Positions 5,364 to 57,598 of a stretch of 64,000 nucleotides of DNA are shown piece after piece. Source of the stretch: Bacteroides sp. Its GTDB lineage: Bacteria; Bacteroidota; Bacteroidia; Bacteroidales; Muribaculaceae. Every line of letters starts with the position of its first letter. Positions within the stretch are counted from its first letter, which is position 1. Where the stretch lies: the NCBI GenBank assembly GCA_014801985.1, contig JAAVDD010000034.1:55844-119843 (forward strand), read 5' to 3'. The position numbers were made by a program, and so were the translations under genes. Below the pieces are notes generated by a model, which saw nothing but the letters and a program-made list of their open reading frames with translations, searched no databases and was not told the origin of the DNA.

Positions 5364-5561
5364 ATGAATGTTGAGGATTTTAGAGATTATTGCCTCTCCC
5401 TGGCTCAGGCTGAGGAGAATATGCCGTGGACTGAACCGCAATATCAAATCCATATATACATGTCGAAATGCACGAAGGTGCGTTTCAGCACGTGGCAAAA
5501 GCATCCGCGCCTTCAACACACCTTCGGATTGCTTGTTAAATTGGTGACTCCGATTATGTAG
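5364..5561 (+). pseudogene. Chimeric remnant: MmcQ/YjbR-like N-terminus fused to a duplicated C-terminus of cardiolipin synthase
   Basis: N-term 'MNVEDFRDYCLSLAQAEENMPWTEPQYQ' is MmcQ/YjbR-like; 'KCTKVRFSTWQKHPRLQHTFGLLVKLVTPIM' matches the end of the cls ORF at 7553-7648. Confidence 0.75.
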
Positions 5562-5581
5562 CCAATCATGATTCTAAAGCA
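5466..5581 (+). repeat. Copy A of a 116-nt duplicated segment (cls 3' end)
   Basis: Aligns without gaps to 7553-7668; about 21 mismatches by hand count. Confidence 0.85.
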
Positions 5582-6053
5582 TTTGATTGAATGAGTATAT
5601 CCGGGTAAATGTTATGCTTTTTGCATTCTTATTATATATCTTTACCGGAAACTGCTTGGAAAGTAAAGTTTTTTCCAATGAAGCAATTTCTTCGGAAGTC
5701 AGAAAGCAGTTCTTCCCCGGAAAGATAAAATTGATATTCTCAATTTTTCCTCTCTGATCGCAGGCAAAGGACAGTATGATTCTGTTGTTCTTTAATTCTT
5801 GAATCCGTTTTGTTCCCAAAACATTTTTAAATGAATTAGGAATAATGGAATCATTGTCAATATCGAAATCTTCCCCCATACTATATTGATGTTGGATCAA
5901 GGCTTTCTGTTTGTTGTACACAACACCTTTGTCATAATTAAATACATAGGTTGACTTGTTCACTTCCTTGTTCACAATTTGTGCTTGGGCAACCAGTGAA
6001 GGAGCGATGAATAGAAGTATCAATAGTAATGATTTAAAGATTGAATGGCTCAT
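5574..6053 (-). CDS. Small secreted protein of unknown function (TonB-C-like candidate)
   Basis: Signal peptide MSHSIFKSLLLILLFIAPSLVAQAQ followed by ~130 aa soluble domain. Confidence 0.6.
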   Translation of the reverse strand: MSHSIFKSLLLILLFIAPSLVAQAQIVNKEVNKSTYVFNYDKGVVYNKQKALIQHQYSMGEDFDIDNDSIIPNSFKNVLGTKRIQELKNNRIILSFACDQRGKIENINFIFPGKNCFLTSEEIASLEKTLLSKQFPVKIYNKNAKSITFTRIYSFNQML

Positions 6054-6193
6054 TTCAGTAACTGGAATTTAATTGAAGAGTATCAAACAAATCCTTTTTT
6101 AAGAAAGTCTTCCTAATTTAAACAAAATAGTAGAAATAAAAATTCTTGCAAGTTACCGATTATTTCATTAAATTAGCGGAATAAAAGAGAGAT

Positions 6194-7648
6194 ATGTCTA
6201 CAACGGCGGCACTATTATGGATTAGCTTCAATGAGTGGGTCACACTAATTATACTGATAGCCTATAGCGTCACTATAATAAGTATGGTCGTGGTCGTTCT
6301 GTCGGAAAACAGAAACCCTATCCGTTCGATAGCATGGGTTCTTGCGTTGCTTTTTCTTCCTATTGTCGGATTGGTGTTTTATCTCTTTTTCGGCCGCAGC
6401 CTGAAAGGACAGCATATCATAAGCCGGCGGAACAAGCGCAAGCTCATGAACCGTTTTCATCTGCGCCCGGTGAATCTGGATGAAGAGCCCCTTTCCGCTG
6501 AGGAACGCACATTGGTGAAGTTGGCTCGTAATCTTTGCACCTCTATCTATACTGTCAACAATGAACTTAAAATCTTCACTATCGGTCGAGACAAATTCGA
6601 ATCCCTGAAGCATGATCTCCGTAACGCGAAGCGCAGTATATACCTTCAATATTATATCTTTTCCGATGATGCCTTAGGAAAGGAGATTTCAGATATTCTC
6701 ATAGAGAAGGCAAGAGAGGGGGTGGATGTTAAGGTTATCTATGACCATGTCGGCAGCTTCTCAGCCCGCAACCGGTTTTTCAAGCGTATGAGCGAGAACG
6801 GGGTGGAGACGCATCCCTTCTTCAAGGTAACCTTCCCTCAGCTTGCCAATCGCATCAACTGGCGCAACCACCGGAAGATAGTGGTGATAGATAGCGAGAT
6901 AGGATATATAGGCGGGATGAACATAGCCGACCGTTATGAAAAAGGTCCGGCGGACGGCACAGCATGGCGCGACACACATTTCCGTCTTCGCGGCGACATT
7001 GTGGATGCCCTTATATATTCTTTCCTTGTTGACTGGAATTTCCAGAAGCCAGATAAAAAGGTTGATTATCCGACGCCTCATGTCAATGACATACACAACC
7101 ATGTCGGTATGCAGCTTATCAGTTCGGGACCTATGAGCAGTTACAACAACATAGCCCTCTGTTTTCAGAAAGCTATTTCAGCGGCGACGAAGTCTATCTA
7201 TATTCAGACTCCATATTTTCTGCCTACCGACGGACTTCTTCATGCGCTTGAGGCAGCGGCCTTGGCCAATGTGGATGTCCGGATCATGATTCCTCGCCGA
7301 GGTGATTCCAAAATGCTTCAATACGCCTCATTCTCATACGTCACGCAATGTCTGAAGGCAGGAATCAAGATTTATCTTTACGAGCCAGGGATGCTTCATG
7401 CCAAATCTATGATTGTGGATGATACGTTGGTTACTGCCGGATCCACCAATTTTGATTTCCGCAGCTTCGAGAATAATTTTGAGGCCAATCTTCTTATCTA
7501 TGACCGCGCCACCAACCGGGCTATGCGCGATATATTCTTTGAGGACTTGGCAAAATGCACGAAGGTGCGTTTCAGCACATGGCATAAGCGTCCGCGCCTA
7601 CAGCGCACCTTTGAATCTATCGTTAGATTAGTTGCTCCTATTCTTTAG
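6194..7648 (+). CDS. cls: Cardiolipin synthase (phospholipase D superfamily)
   Basis: Two HKD motifs (NHRKIVVIDSEIGYIGGMNIADRY; LHAKSMIVDDTLVTAGSTNFDFRS), N-terminal TM/PLDNc segment. Confidence 0.95.
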   Translation: MSTTAALLWISFNEWVTLIILIAYSVTIISMVVVVLSENRNPIRSIAWVLALLFLPIVGLVFYLFFGRSLKGQHIISRRNKRKLMNRFHLRPVNLDEEPLSAEERTLVKLARNLCTSIYTVNNELKIFTIGRDKFESLKHDLRNAKRSIYLQYYIFSDDALGKEISDILIEKAREGVDVKVIYDHVGSFSARNRFFKRMSENGVETHPFFKVTFPQLANRINWRNHRKIVVIDSEIGYIGGMNIADRYEKGPADGTAWRDTHFRLRGDIVDALIYSFLVDWNFQKPDKKVDYPTPHVNDIHNHVGMQLISSGPMSSYNNIALCFQKAISAATKSIYIQTPYFLPTDGLLHALEAAALANVDVRIMIPRRGDSKMLQYASFSYVTQCLKAGIKIYLYEPGMLHAKSMIVDDTLVTAGSTNFDFRSFENNFEANLLIYDRATNRAMRDIFFEDLAKCTKVRFSTWHKRPRLQRTFESIVRLVAPIL

Positions 7649-7668
7649 CAATTCATGATTCTAAAGCA
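7553..7668 (+). repeat. Copy B of the 116-nt duplicated segment (native cls 3' end)
   Basis: Ungapped alignment with 5466-5581. Confidence 0.85.
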
Positions 7669-7773
7669 ACCATCTAAAAGTCCACTTCCATTCACAACCT
7701 GCGCCTGAGCAGCAAGTAAGGGAGTGATAAGAAGAAGTATCAAGAATGCTGATTTAAAGATGGATTGATTCAT
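7645..7773 (-). pseudogene. Remnant of a paralogue of the 5574-6053 gene (signal peptide only)
   Basis: Minus-strand translation MNQSIFKSAFLILLLITPLLAAQAQVVNGSGLLDGCFRIMNC* parallels MSHSIFKSLLLILLFIAPSLVAQAQIVN of 5574-6053. Confidence 0.7.
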
Positions 7774-7850
7774 TTTATTTAATTTATCCAGTTTATAGGT
7801 GTAGTTTATATAACGTCTTAAGAGAAATTAAAATTGAGAAACCATATTTA

Positions 7851-8048
7851 TTGGCAAAAGGGATTGAAAAGTGTATGTTTTGCTTGGCAAAAGGGATTGA
7901 AAAGTGTATATTTTGCTTGCTAAAAGGGATTGAAAAGTGTATGTTTTGTTTGCTAAAAGGGATTGAAAAGTGTATGTTTTGTTTGGCAAAAGGGATTGAA
8001 AAGTGTATATTTTACTTGCTAAAAAGGATTGAAAAGTGTATATTTGCA
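7851..8048 (+). repeat. Tandem repeat array, 6 units of exactly 33 bp
   Basis: Unit TTGGCAAAAGGGATTGAAAAGTGTATGTTTTGC at 7851, 7884, 7917, 7950, 7983, 8016 with few substitutions. Confidence 0.97.
8016..8046 (+). promoter_or_regulatory. Bacteroidetes-type promoter formed by the last array unit
   Basis: (C)TTG - N20 - TATATTTG, 29 nt upstream of the ATG at 8076. Confidence 0.6.
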
Positions 8049-8075
8049 ATGTAATTAACTATAAATTATAAATAT

Positions 8076-8264
8076 ATGCTTTATCGTAAAATAGAACGTT
8101 CAATCAGAGAATATTTAACAGAGCGGAATGATAGGATTTTAGGAGTAAGCGGAGCAAGACAAATCGGAAAGTCCTATATTATCCGACATATAGGGCAGCA
8201 ACTTTTCAAGAACTATGTGGAACTCAATCTTATTGAAAATCGTGATATGAGAGAGGCATTTTGA
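8076..8264 (+). pseudogene. Truncated AAA_14/DUF4143-type ATPase N-terminus
   Basis: 'MLYRKIERSIREYLTERNDRILGVSGARQIGKSYIIRHIGQQLFKNYVELNL' contains the Walker A (GARQIGKS) of this ATPase family, then stops at 62 aa. Confidence 0.8.
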
Positions 8265-8516
8265 CGCATCCGGTGGAGAAGAGACCATGATACCGATATA
8301 AAACGCTTTTCAATGTCCGAGAGAGGATATCATTTTCTATTCTCTTAGAAAATATAAGAGTAATATTAATAAAAATTAACAATTATAAAATAGGAATTAT
8401 AGATATTATTTAAATTTTTTTCTTTAAGTTTGCAAAAATTTTCAAAACACAAAACCACACTATCTGAGATCTTAATTGTATATTGAGAAACCATAAAATA
8501 AATCGTACCTATATTG

Positions 8517-39895: not shown

Positions 39896-39987
39896 GGTTA
39901 TAAGGTTATGGGGTATTGGGTTAGAAGTTTATATGATTATTGGGTTATTTAGTAATAATTCAATAAGTATAAACTCCCTATATTAAT

Positions 39988-55376: not shown

Positions 55377-55492
55377 GACTGTATTAGACAGGAGAATATG
55401 GGGATATAAAAAAGACAGGAGTACTATTGTCTTGTACTCCTGTCTTATTCTTTAATACTTCAGTCTGTTCTTTGTTTCACCTGTCTTACTCT

Positions 55493-57598
55493 TTATTCGA
55501 AGCCACGCAGACGGAGGAGAGCGTTGCTGTCGGGCTCATGTCCGCGGAAACGCTTGAAGAGCACGAGAGCATCCTCTGTGTCGCCCGACTCAAGGATATT
55601 CTTTTTGAATGAATCGGCAGTCTTCTTGTCGAAGATACCTTTCTCCTTAAAGAGTTCCCATGCATCAGCCTCAAGAACCTGGCTCCAGAGATATGTGTAA
55701 TAACCCGAAGCGTAGCCGTCGTCGCCGAAGATATGCTTGAAGTAGGGAGAACGATAACGGAAGGTGATCTCCTCAGGCATACCGATCTCATCAGCTACCT
55801 TCTTCTCAAATGCCATTACATCCTCTACCTCAGCCTCGGCACCATACTTGAGGTCGAGCAGGGCGGCGCCGGCAAGCTCAGTGGTGGTGAAACCCTGATT
55901 GAATGTTCCGGCAGCATTCAGTTTGGTGATGAGGGAATCGGGGATAGCCTCGCCTGTCTTGTAATGCTTGGCATAACGCTTCAGGGCCTCAGGCTCGAAA
56001 GCCCAATGCTCATTCATCTGCGAACACATCTCCACATAATCGCGGTCTACATTCGTGCCGGCAATCGACTTGTATGGTGCGCGTGAAAGAATCGACTGAA
56101 GGGCATGTCCGAACTCATGGTAGGTGGTCTCCACCTCGTCGATGGTCAGTAGGGCGGGCATATCGCCGGCAGGACGGGAGAAGTTGCCCACATTGTATAC
56201 TATCGGACGGCGAGTCTCCCCATTCTCGAATATTCCGCAGCTCTGAAGCTGCTCCATCCATGCACCCTGACGCTTGGAATCGCGGGGGAAATAGTCGCAC
56301 ATCCATACTGCCACGTGTTCACCGGTCTTGGAATCCACCACATCGTAGACCTGAACCTCATCCATATATTTCGGTGCATCGTTCATCGGAACCATCTTGA
56401 TGCCGTAGAGACGTTCAGTCGTATCGAAAAGACCCTGCATCACATTCTCAAGAGAGAAATATTCGCGCACCTGATTTTCATCAAGGTCGAATTTCTGTTT
56501 CTTCACCTTGTCGGCATAATAGTAATAATCCCAAGGAGCAATCTTGAAACCTCCTCCCTCAGCATCCACGATGGCCTGCATATCGGCCACCTCCTCATGT
56601 GAGCGTTTCACGGCGGGTTCGAACACGGAGAGAAGAAGATCTGTGGCAGCTTCCGGAGTCTTTGCCATCACTCGCGAAGTCATCATCTTTGCGAAATTGT
56701 CGAAGCCCATGATCTTTGCCTTCTCATTGCGAAGCTTCACAATCTGGGAGATTACCGGAAGATTGGAATTCTCGCCTGTGGATGCAAGGGAGGTATATCC
56801 TTTGTAGATAGCCTCACGCAGACCTCGGTTGTCGGCGTATTGAAGCACCGGCAGACGGCTCGGGGCATGGAGGGTGAACACCCAGAGACCGTCGAGACCA
56901 CGTTTCTTTGCTTCATCGGCAGCCTGAGCCACAGAAGATTCCGGCAGACCCGCGAGATCGGCCTTGTCGTAGACCACTACGGTAAACTGATTTGTGGCGG
57001 CAAGCAGATTCTTGTTGAACTGGATGAAAAGTTTCGACAGCTCATCGTTCACTTTCACCAGCTCCGCCTTCTTTTCGGGAGAAAGAGCCGCACCCTGCTC
57101 GGCAAACATACGGTAATACTTCTCCACTACTCGTTTCTGAACCGGAGTGAGTTTAAGTTTGTCGCGTGAATCGTAGACAGCCTTTATACGCTGGAAGAGT
57201 GCATCATCGAGATTCACCTTATTGTTGGCCTCGTTGAGAAGAGGGATGGCCTCTTCAGCCATAGCGGCAAATTCGGGAGTGGAGAGGGCACTCTCATAAT
57301 GATAGAATACGCTTGCCACACGCTCCAGAATCGGAGAAAGATTTTCGAGCGGGAGGATAGTGTTGTCAAAATCGGGGAGAGCGCGATTGCGGGTGATTGC
57401 GGAGAGATTTCGGTCCTGCTCCTCGATTCCGGCTTTGATGGCTGGAATGAAATCCGACACCTTGATTTTTTCGTATGGAGGGATTCCATACTTCGTGGTG
57501 TAGGGCTGCAGGAAGGGGTTTGTAGAGTCCTGTGCCATAATCTGTAATGGTGTGGCGGCGAGGATAGCCCCGATCGCCACGGTAGCAAATCTGTTCAT
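55493..57598 (-). CDS. M3 family metallopeptidase (peptidyl-dipeptidase Dcp-like)
   Basis: HExxH 'TYHEFGHALQSILSRAPYKSIAGTNVDRDYVEMCSQMNEHWAFEPEAL'; signal peptide. Confidence 0.93.
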   Translation of the reverse strand: MNRFATVAIGAILAATPLQIMAQDSTNPFLQPYTTKYGIPPYEKIKVSDFIPAIKAGIEEQDRNLSAITRNRALPDFDNTILPLENLSPILERVASVFYHYESALSTPEFAAMAEEAIPLLNEANNKVNLDDALFQRIKAVYDSRDKLKLTPVQKRVVEKYYRMFAEQGAALSPEKKAELVKVNDELSKLFIQFNKNLLAATNQFTVVVYDKADLAGLPESSVAQAADEAKKRGLDGLWVFTLHAPSRLPVLQYADNRGLREAIYKGYTSLASTGENSNLPVISQIVKLRNEKAKIMGFDNFAKMMTSRVMAKTPEAATDLLLSVFEPAVKRSHEEVADMQAIVDAEGGGFKIAPWDYYYYADKVKKQKFDLDENQVREYFSLENVMQGLFDTTERLYGIKMVPMNDAPKYMDEVQVYDVVDSKTGEHVAVWMCDYFPRDSKRQGAWMEQLQSCGIFENGETRRPIVYNVGNFSRPAGDMPALLTIDEVETTYHEFGHALQSILSRAPYKSIAGTNVDRDYVEMCSQMNEHWAFEPEALKRYAKHYKTGEAIPDSLITKLNAAGTFNQGFTTTELAGAALLDLKYGAEAEVEDVMAFEKKVADEIGMPEEITFRYRSPYFKHIFGDDGYASGYYTYLWSQVLEADAWELFKEKGIFDKKTADSFKKNILESGDTEDALVLFKRFRGHEPDSNALLRLRGFE

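Follow-up and report, generated by a model that had tools for sequence, protein, structure and literature searches.

Gene-specific arrays of direct repeats, putatively operators for autoregulation, precede AAA_14/DUF4143 (PDC-S01) ATPase genes

The intact genes of a subfamily of AAA_14/DUF4143 ATPases (PDC-S01 in PADLOC) are preceded by two to eight direct repeats, set at a pitch of 32-33 bp before the start codon. The core of the repeat is private to the gene, the array in most cases (in Bacteroidota) holds a single promoter box, and the sequence of the core co-varies with residue 269 of the encoded protein. Taken together, these properties make it probable that the ATPases are autoregulatory, each one binding to the array that covers its own promoter; binding would then be direct and presumably cooperative, with repression as its likely outcome.

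The window, i.e. the whole 64-kb stretch of DNA that was analysed, contains such an array in front of a broken ATPase gene. The relevant features, in window coordinates, are as follows.

7642..8365, no strand assigned: segment with the array and the ATPase remnant, missing at the same junction in relative G273
7850..8047, plus strand: six direct repeats of 33 bp each, identified from the sequence, by Tandem Repeats Finder and by a 16-mer scan
7850-7882, 7883-7915, 7916-7948, 7949-7981, 7982-8014 and 8015-8047, plus strand: the six units of the array
7861..7875, plus strand: core 1, GGATTGAAAAGTGTA, composed of a common A-tract half and a gene-specific GTGTA half
7894, 7927, 7960, 7993 and 8026, plus strand: starts of cores 2 to 6
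8015..8046, plus strand: the array's sole consensus promoter (CTTG at 8015-8018, 20 nt, TATATTTG at 8039-8046), overlapping the last core
8076..8264, plus strand: truncated AAA_14/DUF4143 ATPase gene of which the 5' part remains, 62 codons followed by TGA (AAA_14 match, blastp)

The six-unit array proposed in the first-pass annotation is real. Tandem Repeats Finder reports it at 7851-8045 (period 33, 5.9 copies, 91% matches, 0 indels), in agreement with the sequence itself and with the count of the 16-mer GGATTGAAAAGTGTAT, which occurs exactly six times in steps of 33 bp (7861, 7894, 7927, 7960, 7993, 8026); when up to 3 mismatches were allowed, shuffled sequences contained on average 0.93 occurrences and 0 of 100 shuffles reached six. 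The 15-bp core GGATTGAAAAGTGTA is unchanged in all six units, and the other 18 bases of the unit vary slightly. Given the homogeneity of the units (91% alike), the array has probably grown recently. The annotation had described every unit as (C/T/A)TTG, 20 nt and TATRTTTTG; NTTG, the spacing and TATR were indeed found in all six, but unit 5 ends in TATATTTTA. It had rightly confined the exact TAnnTTTG box to the last unit (8039-8046). The consensus applied here is that of the sigma-ABfr promoter (TTTG / TAnnTTTG), as given in PMC7366714. Taking an exact TAnnTTTG in every unit as the mark of a Bacteroidetes promoter array, the window array falls short, with one unit out of six.

The gene that had been called the downstream ATPase possesses AAA_14 homology (ORF P0001, 30.2 bits at a cut-off of 27, residues 19-59, with GARQIGKS as Walker A sequence; 52-68% to intact relatives in blastp), but it is not an intact gene, as the homology to intact ATPases crosses the in-frame stop after 62 codons and ends at about residue 84. 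The window gene does not encode a complete ATPase with a DUF4143 nuclease-like domain, and no C-terminal part was found nearby; the truncation is known from one assembly, an incomplete MAG (76.9%). Because relative G273 has just 15 bp between the flanking genes where the window has 724 bp, this segment would either have been gained in the window genome and then decayed, or have been lost in G273. The ATPase gene being broken, the array cannot serve it, and the best reading of the array is that of a relic, probably the leftover control region of the decayed gene. The surviving paralogue G000:C52 may possibly still bind its six perfect sites, since the core of that paralogue is near-identical and the protein has R269. 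Around the phospholipase D-like gene at 6194-7648 the window contains a partial duplication (5458-5581 resembles 7545-7668, and 5958-6055 resembles 7680-7775, which includes the start of a decayed minus-strand gene for a secreted protein), and short imperfect tandem repeats with periods of 23 and 21 occur at 39896-39947 and 55435-55495, respectively.

The first-pass annotation had suggested a search for recurrence of the unit upstream of AAA_14/DUF4143 genes, and a genome search was positive. The window core was found in 30 of 397 genomes of the host's family, in nearly all cases repeated at intervals of exactly 33 bp. At fourteen of 29 loci with this core (L008-L036) a complete ATPase reading frame lies close by, and at a further two the ATPase is truncated or cut by the contig end. 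The window's own genome contains a second, somewhat degenerate array with the same core upstream of the intact paralogue G000:C52, and four other paralogues (~450-460 aa) with 33-bp arrays of quite different sequence. At six loci (L008, L012, L017, L018, L034 and L035) same-core arrays of 2-4 units lack an ATPase within 1.5 kb; such orphan arrays would be expected of relics, and of a function in trans as well.

The ATPase proteins of the window genome were aligned and served to collect relatives in named genomes, and an order-level census of genes was built with the PDC-S01 profile; start codons were picked by profile alignment and arrays were detected with a fixed scoring scheme. Arrays at 32-33 bp precede 62 of the 74 census genes and 177 of 207 genes overall (the latter set, unlike the census, includes loci found via the core itself), as compared to 0 of 37 control upstream regions; with this scoring scheme the array was undetectable in about 16% of the census genes. 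An exact-period scan from 12 to 60 on the 74 genes assigned 48 of them to a period of 33 and 12 to a period of 32, with 0-2 at any other value. Most arrays consist of three or four units. The window locus has the same arrangement, with cores repeated in tandem at 32-33 bp just upstream of an ATPase start. A phylum-wide census outside the host's order yielded few members. Array-bearing members beyond the Bacteroidota were found in Clostridia, Spirochaetes, Fibrobacter, Akkermansia, Kiritimatiellae and Eggerthellaceae; the rarer phyla are represented by single genes each, the array being short in some of them, and the genomes are in many cases MAGs. Members on plasmids occur in Acinetobacter (the arrays sampled from four plasmids were identical, and these plasmids may be clonal), in Pasteurellaceae (Glaesserella) and in Collinsella, and a single record represents a Parabacteroides plasmid copy of the array. 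In Glaesserella parasuis (L317, plasmid NZ_CP071488.1) an array-bearing ATPase gene is immediately followed by a type III restriction-modification system.

Inverted repeats were seen before other AAA ATPase genes. Seven of nine paralogues in the window's own genome (L037-L041 and L047-L050) have long inverted repeats in the 200 bp upstream of the start, different in sequence in each case, with scores of 13-31 as compared to at most 10 in 37 controls; at L039 a 62-bp palindrome precedes the start. Among the shorter PDC-S01 subfamilies in the order-level sample, 10 of 37 genes reached an inverted-repeat score of at least 12 and 12 of 37 had 33-bp arrays.

Within the main clades the first half of the core is an A-tract, often TTGGAAAA or TTGAAAA, and the second half varies, with GTGTA, GTCAT, CGCACC, ACGGACA and GTGGAA as examples; other clades have cores of other kinds, such as the CCTTG-type, and some array-bearing genes are without a clear core. 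Close proteins have the core in common and distant ones do not. Around 50 arrays in nine genomes with several paralogues were compared, and no two paralogues had a core in common; genome G399 has arrays at 10 of 10 paralogues, and G168 has 14 matches. One global regulator with a common site was thus rejected, and, as every paralogue has its own core, the paralogues should not cross-regulate.

An exact TAnnTTTG lies within the span of 98 of 132 Bacteroidota arrays (about three quarters, where 15 were expected), and 83 of these 98 have exactly one such -7 box; the box is missing from the span of the other 34. Of 74 units with an exact AAAAGTGTA in relatives, 20 run on into TAnnTTTG. In three arrays of Clostridia (L086, L091 and L093) the TTGAAA of the core, similar to a -35 element, stands 17 nt before TATAAT or TAAAAT as the -10 box, and the pitch of 32-33 bp is kept in this class, where the promoter type differs. 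The sites are thus located on and around the promoter, some of them downstream in the leader, a placement that would fit repression best. Since the position of the sites relative to the promoter varies, the bound protein may activate instead.

The AlphaFold model of the ATPase (pLDDT 92.5) comprises an AAA+ domain, a winged-helix pattern at residues 236-292 and a C-terminal PD-(D/E)XK domain. The predicted winged helix (helices 236-251, 260-263 and 270-282; strand 286-292) lies between the ATPase and nuclease domains, and residue 269 directly precedes its predicted recognition helix. Foldseek matched the model to the archaeal Walker ATPase 2QEN, to Cdc6/Orc1 on origin DNA, to Avs3 and to MuB; by sequence, no solved relatives were found, and searches of NCBIfam and PHROGs gave nothing useful. 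Residue 269 is Arg in 50 of 54 genes with a TGT array and in 32 of 111 others (165 genes; Fisher 9e-16), which puts it at the top of 407 protein columns for association with the core (next column 1.2e-7). Phylogenetically independent pairs gave 7.4 for and 0 against the association. As the column was chosen on clade I, the held-out set of 31 genes, with R269 in 10 of 10 TGT arrays and in 9 of 21 others (p 0.004), and clade II weigh most; clades II and III alone gave pairs of 2.9 to 0, too few for a significant sign test. R269 goes with TGT cores in unrelated clades, Thr or Ser with GTCA, Lys with CGGA, and the combination of W267 and R269 with CGCA arrays.

Based on the above, we propose that the array is a multi-site operator of an AAA+ ATPase that also has a winged helix and a PD-(D/E)XK nuclease domain, in which one core would constitute one binding site. 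The pitch of 32-33 bp, about three helical turns, would line up neighbouring protomers along the same side of the helix, and the orientation of the repeats would suit their head-to-tail assembly. Because the promoter of the gene sits within the array, the bound ATPase should control, and most likely repress, its own transcription. More tentatively, and with some doubt on our side, the arrays could form a system of private addresses, in which a winged-helix code (residue 269 and its neighbours) reads the unique array, so that paralogues coexist without crosstalk, orphan arrays serve as decoys for a surviving paralogue and occupancy possibly activates the nuclease.

It is conceivable, but unlikely, that promoter control is secondary and that the private array serves to station the ATPase-nuclease for immune sensing, for example to be released or activated when infection changes DNA or transcription. 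PDC-S01, an ATPase plus PD-(D/E)XK, is among the most abundant defence candidates according to PMC12988326; the catalytic residues E344, D370, E385 and K387 and the Walker residues are invariant or nearly so, the fold is related to those of STAND immune ATPases and MuB filaments, and some of the genes lie near restriction or toxin-antitoxin genes. Nevertheless, the location of the arrays at the gene's own promoter is more simply explained by autoregulation. For a separate DNA-binding regulator there is a precedent in RptR, which acts on three direct repeats at a regulated defence locus (PMC12255303), but with a private core for every paralogue one regulator per gene would be needed, the annotated cases have no constantly adjacent partner gene, and the core is tracked by residue 269 of the ATPase itself. 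We consider such a regulator very improbable.

The first-pass annotation had offered three readings, of which that of a binding array for a regulator is supported by the recurrence of the unit upstream of AAA_14/DUF4143 genes. On the other two readings, a phase-variable promoter array and a decoy for RNA polymerase or its sigma factor, transcription would start repeatedly at the copies or RNA polymerase would be drawn off by them, and copy number would determine the output. All six window units do resemble the -33/-7 pattern, and their similarity points to recent growth, but the conserved part is the gene-specific core, a minority of units reach the box, an array usually has a single exact -7 box, and the pitch is kept in phyla with other promoters. 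The promoter array was rejected on this basis, and readings of this type retain a very slim chance. Tandem repeats in general can also be RNA elements, CRISPR-like arrays or recombination substrates, with no protein partner at the DNA. An RNA family was rejected, as no Rfam match was obtained, and so was a CRISPR array, as the units are contiguous, without unique spacers and 91% alike over the whole unit; considering also that the core co-varies with a residue of the predicted DNA-binding helix, this reading is the least probable of all. Autoregulation by the ATPase remains our preferred explanation.

If so, the private cis element at each gene is a testable candidate ligand for the PDC-S01 ATPase and a first approach to a candidate phage-defence gene that is among the most common and yet unexplained. 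The arrays allow intact and lost copies to be found by DNA alone and provide, together with the proteins, naturally occurring data from which a code of protein-DNA recognition could be read, and their private cores suggest how as many paralogues as in G399 and G168 could share a genome without crosstalk.

Four intact paralogues of the window genome have full-length PADLOC matches to PDLC04792/04786/04788 (best E-values 2.1e-171 to 3.5e-98); the window remnant represents the 5' end of such a PDC-S01 gene and differs in being broken. According to PMC12988326, PDC-S01 comes fourth in abundance among the defence systems of prokaryotes and, like most such candidates, awaits validation. The open-access literature on DUF4143, COG1373, AAA_14 and PDC-S01, in the passages covered, contained nothing on repeats and no mention of an array or private operator. 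As for the sigma-ABfr promoter, the last window unit fits it and most related arrays hold one box, but this box is a single feature inside the array and not the repeated unit. Cdc6/Orc1 and archaeal Walker ATPases (2QBY and 2QEN; Foldseek E 3.7e-6 and 2.8e-8, with low TM-scores of 0.27-0.43) likewise have a winged helix after the AAA+ domain; the Orc proteins bind to origins of replication and are not known to have the nuclease domain. RptR of a type I restriction-modification island also binds cooperatively at the promoter of a defence gene, which contains three direct repeats, but according to PMC12255303 it is a small, separate, dimeric repressor with 9-bp units and a palindromic 6-bp site, whereas the arrays described here have asymmetric cores of ~15 bp at a pitch of 32-33 bp, and their reader is probably the ATPase itself.
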